From positions 1-33,685 of IMG/VR virus record IMGVR_UViG_3300009506_000125: 33,685 nucleotides of DNA; one strand, 5' to 3'. The first letter of the stretch is position 1. Each line of letters opens with the position of its first letter. The stretch is from a virus. Below the pieces are notes generated by a model. It did no database searches, had not been told where the DNA came from, and saw nothing but the letters and a program-made list of their open reading frames with translations. The position numbers and the translations under genes are program-made. Shown here one piece after another: positions 2,426-22,021 of the stretch.

Positions 2426-2457
2426 AATTGAGAGGGGCTTGATTGCCCCTCAATTTT
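2426..2457 (+). terminator. Terminator-like hairpin after ERF, ahead of the pentamer array
   Basis: AATTGA and GGGGC (2426-2438, two-base bulge between them) pair with GCCCC and TCAATT (2445-2455); the loop is six bases, and four T follow. An upstream TTTTAA allows weak action on the other strand. It would separate ERF from the array, or become a regulated stop if the array is read from the same transcript. Confidence 0.5.
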
Positions 2458-2460
2458 AAT

Positions 2461-2535
2461 GGGAAGGGCCTGGACAGCATAGGCGAGAAGGGGATGGGAA
2501 CGTCTGGGATTGGGAGATAGAGGTTTGGCAAGGAT
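2461..2535 (+). repeat. GG-phased pentamer array, segment A
   Basis: Read in fives from 2461, the form is NGGNN: 11 of 15 pentamers have GG at positions 2-3 and 14 of 15 have G at position 2. The stretch is poor in C and so should be single-stranded as RNA. It starts with GGGAAGGGCCTGGA (2461-2474), repeated exactly at 2758-2771 with further similarity beyond. It leads directly into the first tRNA-like hairpin. Confidence 0.75.
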
Positions 2536-2536
2536 A

Positions 2537-2579
2537 TAGTGGTGATAGTCGTAGTGGAGTGCAACTCTCCACATCACTA
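2537..2579 (+). ncRNA. tRNA-like minihelix 1
   Basis: TAGTGGTG (2537-2544) pairs with CATCACTA (2572-2579), eight base pairs including one G-U. An unpaired linker follows (2545-2554). TGGAG (2555-2559) pairs with CTCCA (2567-2571) around the seven-base loop TGCAACT (2560-2566). The T-stem abuts the acceptor strand with no gap, giving a 13-bp stack as in the top half of a tRNA. C56 and A58 equivalents are present. A2580 follows in the discriminator position; no CCA is encoded. D and anticodon arms are absent. Not a functional tRNA by known rules. Confidence 0.7.
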
Positions 2580-2590
2580 ATTCTGATAAT

Positions 2591-2650
2591 GGAATGGACG
2601 GCACAGGACGGGTAAGTCGGGGACTGTGAAGTAAAGGAATGGAATGGCCA
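2591..2650 (+). repeat. GG-phased pentamer array, segment B
   Basis: Between minihelices 1 and 2, twelve consecutive pentamers from 2591 all begin with G and eight begin with GG (form GGNNN). The motif GGTAAGTC (2611-2618) recurs in segment C at 2779-2786. No coding frame or hairpin explains the phase. Confidence 0.75.
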
Positions 2651-2691
2651 TAGTGGTATTGGTAATGGAGGTTCGACTCCTCCAACCACTA
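2651..2691 (+). ncRNA. tRNA-like minihelix 2
   Basis: TAGTGGT (2651-2657) pairs perfectly with ACCACTA (2685-2691). The T-arm GGAGG (2667-2671) pairs with CCTCC (2679-2683) around TTCGACT, a textbook T-loop. T2666 can also pair with A2684, making a continuous 13-bp stack. The linker ATTGGTAA (2658-2665) resembles a D-loop, with a GG that could dock on the T-loop. An A follows the acceptor strand. A separate small hairpin (GTTCC/GGAAC, 2695-2708) comes right after it. Confidence 0.75.
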
Positions 2692-2700
2692 AATGTTCCA

Positions 2701-2825
2701 CGAGGAACAGACCAGACCGGAGCGGATTGGAACGTCGAGGCAGGGATCGGACTGAACGGGAAGGGCCTGGAATGTATAGGTAAGTCAAGGCACAGAAAGT
2801 CAAGGATTGGAAAGCAAGGGAAAGG
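2701..2825 (+). repeat. GG-phased pentamer array, segment C (25 units)
   Basis: Read in fives from 2701, all 25 pentamers have a G at position 4 or 5 and 16 have GG at both (form NNNGG). It contains the second copies of GGGAAGGGCCTGGA (2758-2771), GGAACGTC (2729-2736, first copy 2497-2504) and GGTAAGTC (2779-2786). It ends about 25 bases before the RAMP-like gene, whose AAGGAG ribosome site lies at 2838-2843. Confidence 0.8.
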
Positions 2826-2851
2826 CAACTTTTTAACAAGGAGAAAATAAA

Positions 2852-3451
2852 ATGATAAGAGCAAATGTAACAATCAGAGGCATAAAACCCTTCATTTTTC
2901 ACAAATTCAATTTAGAATCCATAACGGATACAAGAAAACCACGAGAGGGATCAGCAGGAAACAACCCCAACGAATGGAGAGATTCTTTTTTCCATAGAAA
3001 TGGACAACTTTACATGCCAGGAACCTACATGTTTGCGTCGTTAAGAAATGGTGCAGTCCACACAAAAGTAGGAAGAGGTACCATTCAAAAAACATGGATA
3101 TCTGCTGTCACAGTAGACGACGAAATCATTGTATTTAACCGACACATGTTCGATAACTGGGAAAATATAGAACCAGAAAACATACCACAAGATTCTAATC
3201 TCCCTGTTTATGTGGATATCAGAATGGTAAGCAATCCTAATACGAAAGGAAAAAACGTGAGATACCGAATAGCTATGTCACCAGGATGGGAATGCTCCTT
3301 TTCCTTAACAATAGATAATTCCTTGGTATCTCAAGCTCAAGCAAAGAAAGTTATTGAAGATGCAGGGAAACTTCAGGGAATAGCAGACGGAAGAACTTTG
3401 GGCTATGGTAGATTTGAAGTTGTTAAATGTGATTTTGAGCCCTTAACATAA
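2852..3451 (+). CDS. RAMP-like (Cas7-like?) phage protein of unknown function
   Basis: The 199-aa product starts with a beta strand and loop, MIRANVTIRGIKPFIFHKF, and ends with a glycine-rich segment, QGIADGRTLGYGRFEV (175-190), which resembles the G-loop of RAMP/Cas7-type RNA-binding proteins. From memory, phages carry a family of such proteins, often beside recombination genes, with starts like 'v.i.G..Pllmh' and ends like 'G.gd.R...GRFev'; none has an assigned job that I know of. AAGGAG stands nine bases before the ATG. The gene sits between two G-pentamer arrays carrying tRNA-like hairpins, so an RNA-binding role is attractive (inference). Gene existence is secure; the RAMP relationship is tentative. 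Confidence 0.65.
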   Translation: MIRANVTIRGIKPFIFHKFNLESITDTRKPREGSAGNNPNEWRDSFFHRNGQLYMPGTYMFASLRNGAVHTKVGRGTIQKTWISAVTVDDEIIVFNRHMFDNWENIEPENIPQDSNLPVYVDIRMVSNPNTKGKNVRYRIAMSPGWECSFSLTIDNSLVSQAQAKKVIEDAGKLQGIADGRTLGYGRFEVVKCDFEPLT

Positions 3452-3485
3452 AACCTTCAAACTCTGTAGCCCTTTTAATCTATTT

Positions 3486-3540
3486 TACGGCACGGCATGG
3501 AGGAGAGAGGGTTGGATTGCTTGGGCATGGTTAGGTTCGG
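3486..3540 (+). repeat. GG-phased pentamer array, segment D
   Basis: Eleven pentamers in the NNNGG phase: nine have GG at positions 4-5 and the other two have one G there. The flank begins with ATTTTACGG (3482-3490), repeated exactly 100 bases later at 3582-3590, so minihelix 3 is inserted between two identically started arrays in the same phase. Confidence 0.75.
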
Positions 3541-3581
3541 CGGCGTGATAGGCTCCACGGGGTGCAAGTCCCCGACGCCGC
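3540..3581 (+). ncRNA. tRNA-like minihelix 3
   Basis: GCGGCGT (3540-3546) pairs perfectly with ACGCCGC (3575-3581). After an 11-base linker (3547-3557), CGGGG (3558-3562) pairs with CCCCG (3570-3574) around TGCAAGT. The T-stem directly abuts the acceptor strand: a 12-bp tRNA-type stack. The stems differ in sequence from minihelices 1 and 2 while the architecture is kept, which argues for selection on structure. The linker starts GATAG as in minihelix 1. An A (3582) occupies the discriminator place. Confidence 0.75.
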
Positions 3582-3585
3582 ATTT

Positions 3586-3670
3586 TACGGATGGGAAGGT
3601 ATTGGATTGGCGAGATGTGGACAGGGAAGATGTGGCATGAATAGGACAGTTATAGCAAGGCAAGGAGAGG
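3586..3670 (+). repeat. GG-phased pentamer array, segment E
   Basis: Seventeen pentamers in the same NNNGG phase as segment D: 11 with GG and all with G at position 4 or 5. The last units (CAAGG, CAAGG, AGAGG) double as the ribosome-binding site of the membrane protein starting at 3675. Confidence 0.75.
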
Positions 3671-3674
3671 TCTT

Positions 3675-3827
3675 ATGCACTTAATTAAAGTCGGTACAAT
3701 AGGGTGTCTATTCTCCCTACCATTTTATATCTTGTGGATCTGTAAACCTCCAGAATCTATAGCAACTTCTATTTTGATATGGAGTATGTTACTTTTTTAT
3801 TTCATGATCATAAAAGAAGATACGTGA
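3675..3827 (+). CDS. Small two-span membrane protein (50 aa)
   Basis: ATG at 3675 is preceded by AAGGAGAGG, the end of the pentamer array. The product has two hydrophobic stretches: VGTIGCLFSLPFYILWIC (about 6-23) and IATSILIWSMLLFYFMII (about 29-46), separated by a short KPPES loop, with basic/acidic ends. This hairpin membrane topology fits small phage holin-like or inner-membrane proteins, but nothing proves the role. It follows the array with no gap and precedes other small genes in the same direction. Confidence 0.55.
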   Translation: MHLIKVGTIGCLFSLPFYILWICKPPESIATSILIWSMLLFYFMIIKEDT

Positions 3828-3925: not shown

Positions 3926-4147
3926 ATGAACAAGATAAACAATGATACATCAGGCCCACACATTCCGAAGCCAGTTAGGCTTTACCGCACAAGAAGTTAC
4001 TATCCATTCCCACCAGAAATTTTAAATGCAATAGCGAGGTTGCAAGATGACAAAGAAAAAGGACTCAAAGGTAGAACTGCGAAGGATTATACCAAAAGAG
4101 GAAATCCCCGAATTGGTGAACTCCCTAGACAAGTTGATCCAAGCTGA
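3926..4147 (+). CDS. Hypothetical basic protein (73 aa)
   Basis: ATG at 3926 follows AGGAAAG. The product starts MNKINNDTSGPHIPKPVRLY and continues with a helix PPEILNAIARLQDD, then a basic tail rich in Lys, Arg and Gly. There are no cysteines and no membrane segment. Its final 101 bases overlap the next gene in another frame. The amino-acid makeup before the overlap looks natural, while the tail after residue 48 looks like a by-product of the overlapping frame, so the gene may be real with a poorly constrained end. No family recognised. Confidence 0.45.
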   Translation: MNKINNDTSGPHIPKPVRLYRTRSYYPFPPEILNAIARLQDDKEKGLKGRTAKDYTKRGNPRIGELPRQVDPS

Positions 4148-4442
4148 AATAGAAAAACACTTCACATGTTTGCAAGAGATGACTACCCAAGTACAGATCC
4201 TCTACGCAAAACTTCAGAAAGCTTTGGCAGGACAGGAAAAAGCTCTGGAAAAGATGATCGACCAGAATCAGATCACAGAAGAAACCCTTTGCAACGTTCT
4301 GCTAGCGATTCGTCAAAATGAATACCTACAGGCATGGTACCCCGATACTTGCGGCTTCCCAGAACAAAAAGTCGTAGGACAGCATCCTGTTCAAAAGGAA
4401 AGACTCCAAAAGAAAATTGAAGACAGAAAAGTTTCTCGATAA
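4047..4442 (+). CDS. Hypothetical helical protein (131 aa)
   Basis: The product starts MTKKKDSKVELRRIIPKEEI and is dominated by long charged helices with a likely coiled coil (about 20-95: EIEKHFTCLQEMTTQVQILY, QKALAGQEKALEKMIDQ). The C-terminus is basic (RLQKKIEDRKVSR). GAGG lies about eight bases before the ATG. It is the last gene of the plus-strand early run and ends exactly at the minus-strand terminator (4441-4473). I cannot assign a family; a DNA- or protein-binding accessory is possible. Confidence 0.6.
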   Translation: MTKKKDSKVELRRIIPKEEIPELVNSLDKLIQAEIEKHFTCLQEMTTQVQILYAKLQKALAGQEKALEKMIDQNQITEETLCNVLLAIRQNEYLQAWYPDTCGFPEQKVVGQHPVQKERLQKKIEDRKVSR

Positions 4443-5171: not shown

Positions 5172-7058
5172 TTAACTATCTGACATTTTGTATTGTAATG
5201 TTCCATAAATGTTTCGGGAACCGGACGGCATTTCGTCGTTGGTCAAAATATCTCCCGTTTCTCCTCTCCAGGATGTGAGATTTTGTGCTGATATAGCATG
5301 ACCACCAACCCTGGCCGTTATAGAAGTGGAGTTCCAATATGCAGCACCAGCGTAGAAATTATTGCCATTTTGCACAGCAATATAAGGTATCGTTAGAAAG
5401 GAAACAACGGCTCCTGCTCCATCTGTGCCACCATCTCCATCCATGAAGTATTGGATTTCACAGCGAGATCCTGGCAAAATGCGGAATAGATATTCGTTAG
5501 TGCTGAAAACAGGAGCAGTGCCACCATTGTCCTGAATATACGTGCCTGTCGCCGCTCCAAACGCAGCTGTAGGAAAAGTAAACTCTCTAGAATATTGGAA
5601 TTGACCTATCCCATCCTGATCATCTAGCGTTTGTACTGTCCAATCATCTGAAGCACTCATTCTCATACGAAAGGACCCTACCATCAAACATGGATTCGTA
5701 TCGTAGAGAGTTTCATCAATGTTGTCTAATGAGAAAAAGCTGCCTTGAGTATCTGCCACAGCATCGTCAGGAGCACCAATGTTGGCTGTAGCAGGACTTT
5801 GTCTTAAATCGGGTACTCTTGAAATCATAAACTGAATGGCAGATTCGGCATCATTGGTTACCGCATATAAGAAGAAAGGTAAATCTTGTGCATACGCAAC
5901 ACTAGTTGTTAAGCCAAACAAATTGTTGATAATTTCACTAGCGCCAGCGTCGTCAATAAAATTCTGATCAGCAGTGATCGCATATCTCGTAAACGCTCCT
6001 GGAGTGGCTTTAGAAGGCAAAACCACATATGCTGGATTTGTTGCGCTTAGTGTTGCCGTAGCTCCTCTGACGGTAAATGTCCCTCCAGAATAAGTTATAC
6101 CCAGATTTTCGTAGTAAGGTCCTTGATAGCGCAAATTGTTGTTAACACGTGTCGTACCACCATCAAAAGTTACAAAGCCAGTATCTATGCCATAAGCTGT
6201 ACGAGTAGTTACTGTATTCGCTGATCCCGTGTTGCTGTAAGTAACTTTTCCATATACGATAGCTCCTGCTCCAGATATAGGTGCAGCATTTGTTGAATTA
6301 ACAACATTATCATCAAAAAGACATGTATGACCAGCCCCTACTGTTACAGCGGCTGCTGTAGTGGATCCAAAGTGATTCGACAAAAGTGTGCTCTGACCAG
6401 TTCCAGCTAACGCAATGCATGTCGTTGCTGCGTTAGAAAACCTCGTAAACCAGCTATTGATAGATCCTGTTCCAGAAGTCGAAAAAGGTTGGTTAAAATT
6501 GCTTGATTGAAAGTTGATGCTTCCTGCACTACAAGTTGAAACAGCAGCAGTTCCAGACGTCGTTCCATTACAATTGAAATAAAATATCGTTCCCCCTGTC
6601 GTCACATGTATGCCAATAGCATTAGCGGTAGAAATTGAGCATTGCCACAACCTCATTGATCCTGTTGTATTCGTACAATGCAGACCTGACGAATTAGTAC
6701 ATTGCAGTGTACAATCTATTATGTGCAAAACCGTAGAATTAGATCCTGTAATCTCAACAGCATAATCTGAATTGGTTTGCAGTCTAATTCCTTTAATAGA
6801 CGACACCCCAGTGGCAGTCATAGTAATTTTGCCCACAATGTCTACAGCAGAAGTGGACCCATTTCCAAAACCTACCAACTCCACGCCTGCAGGAATAGTA
6901 AAATCTTCTGTATACGAGCCTGGACGTATCGCTATAGTATCCCCTGCACTCGCACTTGCACAGGCAGAAGTAATAGTGCTGTGAGAGCCGTTAGCCAAAG
7001 AGGGAGCTACAATCCATGTTGTTGGTCCATGCCTATTGTCACCTGTATTCTGAGCCAT
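5172..7058 (-). CDS. Tailspike-like protein with parallel beta-helix
   Basis: The 628-aa product opens with a pectate-lyase-like entry: WIVAPSLANGSHSTITSACA, then AGDTIAIRPGSYTEDFTIPA and GVELVGFGNG, which is the usual cap and first turns of a right-handed beta-helix. Repeating short strands with Thr/Ser/Asn turns follow to about residue 300. The C-terminal half (about 300-628) looks like a beta-sandwich or trimerisation domain, including FRILPGSRCEIQYFMDGDGG. P22-type tailspikes bind and often cleave surface glycans; I cannot identify catalytic acids here. It is the last large gene of the fibre cluster, with AGGT before the ATG. Confidence 0.75.
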   Translation of the reverse strand: MAQNTGDNRHGPTTWIVAPSLANGSHSTITSACASASAGDTIAIRPGSYTEDFTIPAGVELVGFGNGSTSAVDIVGKITMTATGVSSIKGIRLQTNSDYAVEITGSNSTVLHIIDCTLQCTNSSGLHCTNTTGSMRLWQCSISTANAIGIHVTTGGTIFYFNCNGTTSGTAAVSTCSAGSINFQSSNFNQPFSTSGTGSINSWFTRFSNAATTCIALAGTGQSTLLSNHFGSTTAAAVTVGAGHTCLFDDNVVNSTNAAPISGAGAIVYGKVTYSNTGSANTVTTRTAYGIDTGFVTFDGGTTRVNNNLRYQGPYYENLGITYSGGTFTVRGATATLSATNPAYVVLPSKATPGAFTRYAITADQNFIDDAGASEIINNLFGLTTSVAYAQDLPFFLYAVTNDAESAIQFMISRVPDLRQSPATANIGAPDDAVADTQGSFFSLDNIDETLYDTNPCLMVGSFRMRMSASDDWTVQTLDDQDGIGQFQYSREFTFPTAAFGAATGTYIQDNGGTAPVFSTNEYLFRILPGSRCEIQYFMDGDGGTDGAGAVVSFLTIPYIAVQNGNNFYAGAAYWNSTSITARVGGHAISAQNLTSWRGETGDILTNDEMPSGSRNIYGTLQYKMSDS

Positions 7059-10258: not shown

Positions 10259-11107
10259 TCAAGAATCTATTTGCTTCGCTTCGTCTGGCCACGGAACGTG
10301 CGACCAGCTTTTGCCATGTTTGATAGAATATACATGAGTTCTACTCAAACCAAATTCTATTGCTAAATTTGCCCCAACCTCACCAGAAATCAATCTTCTT
10401 TTTATCTCTATTACCTGATTCTCCGTTAGCTTGGAATTCCAGTTTTTTTCACCAATAGTCATATCTCTACCATCTTTCTTGCGATCATTCGCATTTTCCT
10501 TTGCATCGCCAATTTTCAGATGATCGGGACAACAACATGCAGGATTTCCACCACCAGGGCATTTATGAAGGACAAATGCTTTTTTTGGTATTGGCTCATT
10601 GAAAACTGAGTAAGAAAGACGATGGGATGTCCATTGCCGTCCGTTTATCTTGCATTTACCATATCCAGCTCTATTTAATCCGTTTTGCCAGATCCAGCAC
10701 CCGTTTTCGTTTATTTTTACATTTTCTCTAATATGATTTTGGATTTCACGTATCGTTTTTTTCTTGGCTGTTCCTTTTCCAAAACAGTGCCTACAATATC
10801 CTGTTCTTTTTTTGGAAGCATTCATTACCACAATTCTTTCGGCTTTACAGATTGGACAAATAATTTTTTTACCCTTAAATCTTAGTCCTGATTTTGAGAT
10901 ATAGATTTCGTCTTCGTTGGTTAAGATATATCCTTCTCTTGCATAATTTCTGCAGGACACGCAATAGCCCTTATGTGTTTTAAAATCTCGTTTGTCTATC
11001 TCCAAAATCTTCTTACAGCGCCTGCATTCTATACGAATGTATTTTCTTTTTTTTGGATCTTTGGGGCTTTTTTTTGTAACTTCTTTGTAAAATTCTTCGT
11101 AAAGCAT
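10259..11107 (-). CDS. HNH homing-type endonuclease with two zinc ribbons
   Basis: The 282-aa product has, in order, a zinc ribbon (C28, C31, C49, C52), a second ribbon (C84, C87, C105, C108), an HNH core (about 136-205: CWIWQNGLNRAGYGKCKING, SHRLSY, HKCPGGGNPACCCPDHLKIG) and a C-terminal helix-turn-helix (about 225-270: LTENQVIEIKRRLISGEVGA, FGLSRTHVYSIKHGKSW). This is a free-standing HNH endonuclease of the kind that spreads between phages by cutting sites in relatives. It is followed by a normal fibre-cluster gene and lacks a clear ribosome site. A terminator of the upstream fibre gene (11167-11195) sits just before it, so it may depend on its own weak promoter. Confidence 0.88.
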   Translation of the reverse strand: MLYEEFYKEVTKKSPKDPKKRKYIRIECRRCKKILEIDKRDFKTHKGYCVSCRNYAREGYILTNEDEIYISKSGLRFKGKKIICPICKAERIVVMNASKKRTGYCRHCFGKGTAKKKTIREIQNHIRENVKINENGCWIWQNGLNRAGYGKCKINGRQWTSHRLSYSVFNEPIPKKAFVLHKCPGGGNPACCCPDHLKIGDAKENANDRKKDGRDMTIGEKNWNSKLTENQVIEIKRRLISGEVGANLAIEFGLSRTHVYSIKHGKSWSHVPWPDEAKQIDS

Positions 11108-20814: not shown

Positions 20815-21464
20815 TAATTTCCTATGGCTAACCAGTAAAATTGAAAGCTATGACTTCCGTTATTATATACTTGAAATCCAGATGTTGTTAAATTTGATGT
20901 CGAAACCCACGCATCTGTTACATTACCTGGAGATGATGGAGCTCGATATCCTGTTACCTGAATGTTCCACACATTGTTAGGAAACGTCCTTGGAAACGTA
21001 TAAGTAAAAACATCAGTCGATGCAGCCGTATTACTATTACCCCATTGCATGATTAATCCACCAGGAAGAAACGTCCACCCACCATTTAAGCTAGGGGGAC
21101 CTACTTGATAATTTGTATCAGTTCCAAATGTTGTAATATTACCGTCTGCCCCAGCAGTACTAGTTGTTAATTGATAAGAACTTCCAGTATTTTCTCCTCG
21201 AAAATGCAACTGAGAAACACCTCCAACTGCGGCAACATACAACCCACCCTCGTTAGCGGCGGTGGCTGGTGGGCTAGAATTGTTATCCCAACCTGTTCCA
21301 GATTCCGGGAGTTGCAGAAATTTATGCTTCCCATCATTGCTTGTAGTCAACGGTATGTGGTTTTTACCAAATGCGGTGTTAATATCAGAGAAGTTCTGTT
21401 GGATGATCGGTTGCGTCTCGCCTAATGACTGGCCGCTAGCCGGAACCGAAGTATTATAGGTCAT
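20814..21464 (-). CDS. Tail fibre protein with gp53-like C-terminal domain (216 aa)
   Basis: The C-terminal half contains GGWTFLPGGLIMQWGNSN, then FTYTFPRTFPNNVWNIQVTG, and ends FQVYNNGSHSFQFYWLAIGN. This is the layout of the short fibre/collar C-terminal domain seen at fibre tips ('.W..l.gGlilQWG.....tv.FP..Fp...w.i...'). The N-terminal part (SLGETQPIIQQNFSDINTAF) is a likely attachment helix. It is encoded between the gp4- and gp10-like genes, where P22 places its needle gene 26 slightly later, and it may be a needle-tip or fibre. ATGA overlap with the HNH gene. Confidence 0.75.
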   Translation of the reverse strand: MTYNTSVPASGQSLGETQPIIQQNFSDINTAFGKNHIPLTTSNDGKHKFLQLPESGTGWDNNSSPPATAANEGGLYVAAVGGVSQLHFRGENTGSSYQLTTSTAGADGNITTFGTDTNYQVGPPSLNGGWTFLPGGLIMQWGNSNTAASTDVFTYTFPRTFPNNVWNIQVTGYRAPSSPGNVTDAWVSTSNLTTSGFQVYNNGSHSFQFYWLAIGN

Positions 21465-22021
21465 TGGTTATTAACAACATATGTCGCCCCCTTTTTGGTT
21501 TCACTTATTTTCTTTTTAGTTTCTTCGCTTCTTTTTTTTTCTTTCCAATAACGTACAGGATTTTTTATCTTTGCTTCACTCATTTTTCTTTTAGCATCTT
21601 CAGACATCTTTCTTCCTCTTTGATCTGGAAGTCGTCTCTTTACTTTTGCATCTTGAATATTGTCTTTACATGTTCCCAACCACAAATGGCTCGGATTCAC
21701 ACAATGTTTTACATCACAAGAATGACATACATATAAACCTTTTCCAATTTCACCTTTAAAGGCCACATACGATGCTCGGTGTGAGCTGATTGTCTTTCCT
21801 TTATAATCGATCTTGCCATATCCATTGCAGGACATCGACCCATTCCAAATCCAGCAATCATTTTTATTCTTTTCACATCGTTGCAAAATTATATCCTTCA
21901 TACTCGTATGTTTATGCTCTTCCATACATTTTCTTGAGCAATATTTCTTTCTTCCTTTCCTGCACGCATATGCCTCACACTCTTTCTTGCAATTTTGACA
22001 TTCGAAAATAAACTTCTTCAT
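21461..22021 (-). CDS. HNH endonuclease with NUMOD3 repeats (186 aa)
   Basis: An N-terminal Cys cluster (FECQNCKKECEAYACR, KYCSRKC) is probably a zinc finger. The HNH core is at about 52-125: DCWIWNGSMSCNGYGKIDYK, SSHRASYVAFKG, YVCHSCDVKHCVNPSHLWLG. Two NUMOD3-type DNA-binding repeats follow (RGRKMSEDAKRKMSEAKI, KRSEETKKKISETKKG). This is a free-standing homing endonuclease inserted between the gp4-like and fibre genes. AAAGGAG lies six bases before its ATG, so it is well translated from the late message. Its HNH core resembles that of the other endonuclease at 10.3-11.1 kb, but the accessory domains differ. Confidence 0.9.
   Translation of the reverse strand: MKKFIFECQNCKKECEAYACRKGRKKYCSRKCMEEHKHTSMKDIILQRCEKNKNDCWIWNGSMSCNGYGKIDYKGKTISSHRASYVAFKGEIGKGLYVCHSCDVKHCVNPSHLWLGTCKDNIQDAKVKRRLPDQRGRKMSEDAKRKMSEAKIKNPVRYWKEKKRSEETKKKISETKKGATYVVNNQ

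Follow-up and report, generated by a model that had tools for sequence, protein, structure and literature searches.

The window analysed here, a 33.7-kb stretch of viral DNA (positions 1 to 33,685 of IMG/VR record IMGVR_UViG_3300009506_000125), carries a small gene, here called vipr, between two blocks of pentanucleotide arrays. Genes for ERF and a PD-(D/E)XK exonuclease lie directly upstream of the arrays; a weak Cas4-type nuclease match in the window is the exonuclease ORF at 1088-1675. The features of the locus are listed below.

2432..2451, + strand: intrinsic-terminator-like hairpin between the ERF gene and array 1 (consensus match only)
2462..2536, + strand: array 1, 15 GGMNN pentanucleotide units; putative variable part of guide RNA (vrRNA) 1
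2540..2579, + strand: minihelix after array 1, stacked 7 bp + 6 bp, T-loop UGCAACU
2591..2650, + strand: array 2, 12 units; putative vrRNA 2
2651..2691, + strand: minihelix after array 2, 7 bp + 6 bp, T-loop UUCGACU, bulge AUUGGUAA; weak Rfam tRNA match (17 bits, not significant)
2704..2828, + strand: array 3, 25 units, without a minihelix; the vipr leader
2852..3451, + strand: vipr, encoding the predicted RAMP-type Vipr protein, 199 aa, ATG start, G-loop at residues 175-190
3489..3543, + strand: array 4, 11 units, the final unit overlapping the start of the minihelix
3540..3581, + strand: minihelix after array 4, 7 bp + 5 bp, T-loop UGCAAGU, bulge GAUAGGCUCCA; weak Rfam mascRNA match
3589..3673, + strand: array 5, 17 units, without a minihelix; its AAGGAG (3662-3667) serves the ORF at 3675 as ribosome site

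As the initial annotation had proposed, the ORF at 2852-3451 is real and is the only one between block A (units 2462-2828, 5′ of vipr) and block B (units 3489-3673, 3′ of vipr). The arrays abut it on both sides, with 23 nt between the upstream block and the ATG and ~38 nt between the stop and the downstream block, and the ribosome site of vipr, read from the sequence, is AAGGAG at 2838-2843. The claim that an array end forms the ribosome site of the next gene was likewise borne out, as the units GGCAA GGAGA GGTCT (3659-3673) supply AAGGAG and the next ATG is at 3675. In the viral relative L009 (6125-6219), the last array unit, GGAATGG, holds the start codon of the next small ORF (MANWISVYDRLP...), suggesting that arrays serve as ribosome sites in relatives as well.

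The five-base phase described earlier was quantified on GG pairs lying 3-40 nt apart. Distances that were multiples of five made up 50% of the pairs in block A and 46% in block B compared to 21% in shuffles (z = 15.7 and 10.2, respectively), and 0 of 2000 dinucleotide-preserving shuffles reached the observed level. In the rest of the contig, no other 300-nt stretch with enough GG pairs scored that high, which confirms the phase as a property of this region. An array detector based on ten-unit tracts found exactly five arrays in the window (2457-2541, 2591-2655, 2699-2823, 3484-3553 and 3579-3673), all on the + strand and all flanking vipr; its false positives in 40 Markov-shuffled windows were one at the loose threshold and none at stricter ones. 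Over the 80 units, the first base was G in 74 and the second was G in 60 (next T, 11), the third was A in 45, C in 21, T in 10 and G in 4, and columns 4 and 5 were variable. The fixed triplet in the window is hence GGM rather than the pyrimidine-ending GGY. Tandem Repeats Finder reported no repeat in the array region, which indicates that the units have a common phase and are not copies of one sequence.

The Vipr protein of the window matched phrog_4652 in PHROGs (E 7.5e-13), a family annotated 'unknown function' to which the Vipr of Escherichia phage SUSP1 also belongs (E 1.4e-96). When a 24-member profile of the window protein's relatives was searched against the PDB, SUSP1 Vipr (36pp) was matched over its full length (positions 5-188, E 7.7e-11) and was the sole credible match. 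A single-sequence PDB search with the window protein placed 36pp, 'SUSP1 Vipr protein', at the top and Cas7-11 RAMP chains second, all of them weak. Pfam and PADLOC scans of the window Vipr gave no match, and tblastn of the protein against phages gave none at E 0.01 and weak ones at E 10. Among the relatives, weak RAMP/Cas matches recurred (PF03787 RAMPs in 5 of 24; also Csm4 and Cas6). The glycine-rich, G-loop-like end pointed out in the initial annotation is QGIADGRTLGYGRFEV, the C-terminal stretch at residues 175-190 of the 199-aa protein, and six residues of the G-loop region (G172, G176, R181, G184, G186 and R187) were invariant across the 24 relatives. SUSP1 Vipr, the structure of which is solved, is described as a RAMP with an RRM core, a G-loop and a thumb (PMC13142463). 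A RAMP fold is predicted for the window Vipr from this full-length homology, in support of the initial annotation, and the weak RAMP/Cas matches point in the same direction.

A first IMG/VR scan with the window protein alone returned no relatives. With an alignment of the window, Paenibacillus and Nostoc proteins as the seed, 56 viral and 35 genome loci were recovered; these, together with phage and plasmid loci and the window, make up 98 vipr loci, some on near-duplicate contigs. A phased array lay on the vipr strand within 1 kb of the gene at 89 of them, so the expectation that homologues are flanked by similar arrays held. Three of the nine array-less loci (L096, L098 and L099) were only partially matched, and the nine include two pairs that resemble near-duplicate contigs. 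In the tree, the window fell into a viral clade with L009, L010 and L012 (60-64% identical, support 0.98), all four of which are viral, use a GGA or GGM triplet and are without an HNH gene; the arrays of L009 and L010 are near-perfect GGA. Most cellular relatives, and many viral ones, have an HNH gene alongside vipr. Others use GGY, or GTY in cyanobacteria and some phages, and GGA users occur at three places in the tree; both HNH and triplet labels were assigned by simple scripts. K80 is shared by the GGA-using Viprs, most of which also have I83, and GTY users mostly have K65 where GGY users have R65 (window numbering). Residues 65, 80 and 83 are possible specificity residues for the fixed triplet, which is only a lead, the K80/I83 contrast between GGA and GGY Viprs being drawn from six sequences of about three lineages.

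A pattern scan of IMG/VR for GGA arrays returned mostly purine-rich simple repeats, and complex arrays usually had a vipr nearby. An exception was L155 (178-1147), with three complex GGA arrays and no vipr found in the 13.5-kb stretch; it is possibly a guide-only element or has a very divergent Vipr. In the window, the small ORFs at 3675-3827, 3926-4147 and 4047-4442 matched no curated family at its cut-off where scanned and had no relative in the other loci. No vap accessory gene or nuclease was recognisable beside vipr, a vap gene being typical of VIPR but not universal. HNH homing-endonuclease-like ORFs are present at 10259-11107 and 21461-22021, inside the structural gene block and not adjoining vipr. 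The window held no CRISPR repeats or spacers, and no cas effector gene was found beside vipr among the ORFs scanned.

Viral Interference Programmable Repeat (VIPR) systems were described in 2026 as pairing a small (~20 kDa) RAMP-type protein with vrRNAs in which 9-16 YNNGG units precede a structured tail (PMC13142463). They recognise double-stranded DNA through the NN bases, skipping one base of the target for each unit, repress transcription and act mainly between phages, and the targeting of one VIPR by another has been reported (PMC13142463). In this description the fixed triplet is GGY 'or a related consensus', so that GGM marks a variant and membership is still possible. Arrays 1, 2 and 4 (15, 12 and 11 units) lie inside the published repeat range, and arrays 5 (17) and 3 (25) exceed it. 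The homology of Vipr and the arrays at 89 of 98 homologue loci suggest that the arrays are guide RNAs in which each unit would have two fixed, one semi-fixed and two variable bases. We therefore consider, with high confidence, that the locus is a phage-borne VIPR system with its arrays acting as guide RNAs.

The best-characterised point of comparison is the type II VIPR of SUSP1 (vipr at KT454805.2 28477-29061). Both systems are phage-borne, with a homologous full-length Vipr, several same-strand tracts of phased-pentanucleotide vrRNA up- and downstream of vipr and a structured 3′ element. In contrast, the window uses GGM where SUSP1 uses GGY, the two proteins are 25% identical, a T-arm minihelix stands in place of the pseudoknot tail, and neither vap1 nor any other accessory gene is shared with the fetched loci, including SUSP1. 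The nearest protein relatives outside the viral clade are HNH-bearing VIPR loci of Bacilli, Chloroflexales, cyanobacteria and many phages, as exemplified among the closest cellular relatives by the 45%-identical Vipr of Paenibacillus cellulosilyticus. These loci also have an array beside vipr, but an HNH endonuclease gene follows vipr, the arrays are GGY or GTY and some have hammerheads, whereas the window has no nuclease beside vipr. Like the class 1 CRISPR backbone RAMPs (Cas7, Csm4 and Cas7-11), to which it has weak sequence matches, the window Vipr appears to have a RAMP G-loop; its period is five bases compared to six in class 1 CRISPR.

Membership and anatomy come from the locus itself, and polymerisation, the skip rule and repression are carried over from SUSP1. 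By this analogy, Vipr would polymerise on guide RNAs transcribed from the flanking arrays with one subunit per five-base unit, as the phase would naturally suggest. Periodic RNA binding by an oligomer, the reason for the phase suggested in the initial annotation, is the published explanation in the Vipr family (PMC13142463) and would apply here by the same analogy. Each subunit would grip the fixed GG(A/C) and present the next two bases, the guide would read DNA as NNxNNxNN, skipping one target base per unit, and the complex would prevent a competing phage, or another mobile element, from being transcribed. Arrays 3 and 5 lie in the leader of vipr and that of the following gene, respectively, and may either yield guides or allow Vipr to bind its own mRNA leader.

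The guides of the window were compared with potential targets. Using skips of 0-3, no target was found in any of the fetched loci, and in IMG/VR the one-base-skip patterns of arrays 1-4 had zero exact matches. Array 5 had a single IMG/VR match that did not extend beyond the searched core and was set aside as chance. A match was found for the relative L014, a viral contig, where ten consecutive units (5604-5660) have the variable bases TT-GC-GA-GG-AG-TC-AT-GG-TT-GG. Read with a one-base skip, they agree at 20 of 20 positions with the vipr codons for the G-loop stretch LADGRSIGFG in two Bacillus genomes (L074 and L069), the skipped base being the third of each codon; L014's own vipr matches at 16 of 20. 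The chance expectation for a match of this type was estimated at ~0.01 over all guides and skips tried. The one-base-skip rule thus appears to show itself in this branch of the family, and the match is in line with the reported VIPR-against-VIPR targeting. Most of the high-scoring cross-locus guide matches (L031, L052 and L008) were discarded, as the guides were apparently of low complexity.

A feature beyond the initial annotation, which had addressed neither the VIPR identity and guide code nor the division into five separate tracts, is that three of the tracts end in a tRNA-like element. The elements after arrays 1, 2 and 4 have a common plan of two stacked helices, a seven-base T-loop and a 5′-side bulge of 7-11 bases, mostly GG-containing, and no such element follows arrays 3 and 5. 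In form this minihelix is the acceptor/T-arm half of a tRNA; it is not a tRNA. Neither the Rfam tRNA model nor ARAGORN found a tRNA in the window, where Rfam gave sub-threshold matches only; the mascRNA match on the array-4 minihelix had 22 bits against a gathering score of 42.5 (E 0.13, not significant). The 3′ ends are without CCA, the next bases being AAUU, AAUG and AUUU. The same minihelix follows three arrays in the 64%-identical phage L010 and four in Mycobacterium phage LittleE, and Rfam gave no match on the elements of either at an E-value cut-off of 5. A T-arm was present within 110 nt downstream of 11 of 209 arrays, all eleven from four loci, compared to 8 of 2760 random stretches, and strict minihelices were found nine times after arrays and five times elsewhere in ~1.9 Mb. 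Across ten tails, 9/10 base pairs varied on both sides, counted on the paired arms only since MAFFT misaligned the acceptor arms; the tails were picked partly for pairing, so their position after arrays is the stronger evidence. SUSP1 tails, inspected by eye, had no T-loop, and the word 'tRNA-like' is absent from the main text of PMC13142463.

Further array-associated elements were seen in other loci. In L038 (5998-6067), a GGA-type array is immediately followed by a complete tRNA (Rfam, 46.5 bits) whose anticodon loop is defective, and L041 (2606-2675) and L135 have the same layout. A vipr-HNH locus of Marinithermofilum abyssi (L066:5866-6722) has seven type II hammerhead ribozymes interspersed with and surrounding its arrays, and hammerheads have been reported for some VIPR types (PMC13142463). 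Genes 33-34 of LittleE (NC_042322.1; L007:1655-3466) form an unannotated VIPR with five arrays, four of which end in the acceptor/T-arm minihelix. LittleE differs from the window in its SUSP1-like Vipr, its GGY arrays and its distant place in the tree, and the existing annotation is silent on VIPR.

Three other accounts of the locus were weighed against the VIPR reading. A protein-coding or low-complexity origin of the five-base phase, which would make it an artefact, has next to no likelihood: five is not a coding period, the units are phased rather than copied with columns 4 and 5 variable, and the arrays are associated with vipr across the family, even though purine-rich simple repeats elsewhere in IMG/VR fit the GGANN pattern. 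It is highly improbable, too, that the arrays belong to the ERF/exonuclease module as DNA or RNA elements, such as recombination sites, beside an incidental RAMP-like gene. The two module genes do lie directly upstream, but each occurs in one other fetched locus only, which suggests that the arrays belong with vipr, and for SUSP1 the arrays have been proven to be RNAs that Vipr binds (PMC13142463). Unlikely, but deserving more weight, is a VIPR that has decayed or become self-regulatory: targeting would have been lost, and the main role of Vipr would be to bind the array 3 and array 5 leaders and so control vipr and the next gene. The second G present in 60 of 80 units and the mixed third base, compared to the near-perfect GGA of L009 and L010, would be expected of such a system, as would the leader position of array 3 and the failure to find targets of the window guides in the fetched loci and IMG/VR. 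However, the Vipr ORF is unbroken and retains every residue that is invariant in the family, the minihelices of arrays 1, 2 and 4 are well formed, and absence of targets from one database is weak evidence.

The role of the minihelices is less settled than the identity of the locus. The guides of this variant may be made as longer transcripts, in which host RNase P would cut the 5′ end of a minihelix and/or RNase Z its 3′ end, so separating the guides. Substrates of RNase P include acceptor and T-stem helices of ~12 bp, and the enzyme binds stacked stems (PMC11221534). The complete tRNA in L038 and the self-cutting hammerheads between arrays in one family branch would be other cleavable spacers and favour this reading. 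It is also favoured by the T-loop, the 12-13 bp of stacked stems and a bulge that mostly contains GG, since a simple cap would not require such tRNA features. We infer, with a confidence that falls just short of even, that the minihelices after arrays 1, 2 and 4 are tRNA mimics for processing by host RNase P/RNase Z. Alternatively, the minihelix may stay on the guide as a fixed 3′ handle rather than a cut mark, a folded cap that is bound by Vipr or shields the 3′ end and is equivalent to the SUSP1 pseudoknot. The missing CCA, which would weaken recognition by RNase P, and the tails that published type II vrRNAs retain (PMC13142463) favour a handle. Array plus minihelix measures ~118, 101 and 93 nt in the window, close to the ~100 nt of SUSP1 vrRNAs (PMC13142463), and the minihelix is the last element before the next array in both the window and L010. 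We regard the handle as a serious competitor, though a somewhat less probable one than processing. A precedent for cleavage is provided by mascRNA and menRNA, tRNA-like elements cut by RNase P at the 3′ ends of MALAT1 and MEN-beta (PMC11693755). As in the window, they directly follow a functional RNA; they belong to human nuclear RNAs, and with the Rfam match not significant the parallel is one of analogy only.

Relative to published VIPR, the window is a variant that differs in its GGM triplet, the absence of an accessory nuclease and the acceptor/T-arm minihelix after three of five arrays. To our knowledge, VIPR is known from one preprint, and annotation databases still list PHROG 4652 as 'unknown function'. 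VIPR has been proposed as a precursor, and is the probable ancestor, of CRISPR. With this locus, VIPR gains a clade of environmental phages whose fixed triplet differs (GGA/GGM), along with an indication of what a guide expression cassette for this branch would require. The tRNA-like elements between guides are a rather surprising point. It is quite conceivable, at a likelihood a little below one half, that some VIPRs mature their guides via a stripped-down tRNA, a solution that would be common to distant branches and would parallel the hammerheads of others. Such an element could explain how multi-guide transcripts are cut in VIPRs without ribozymes.
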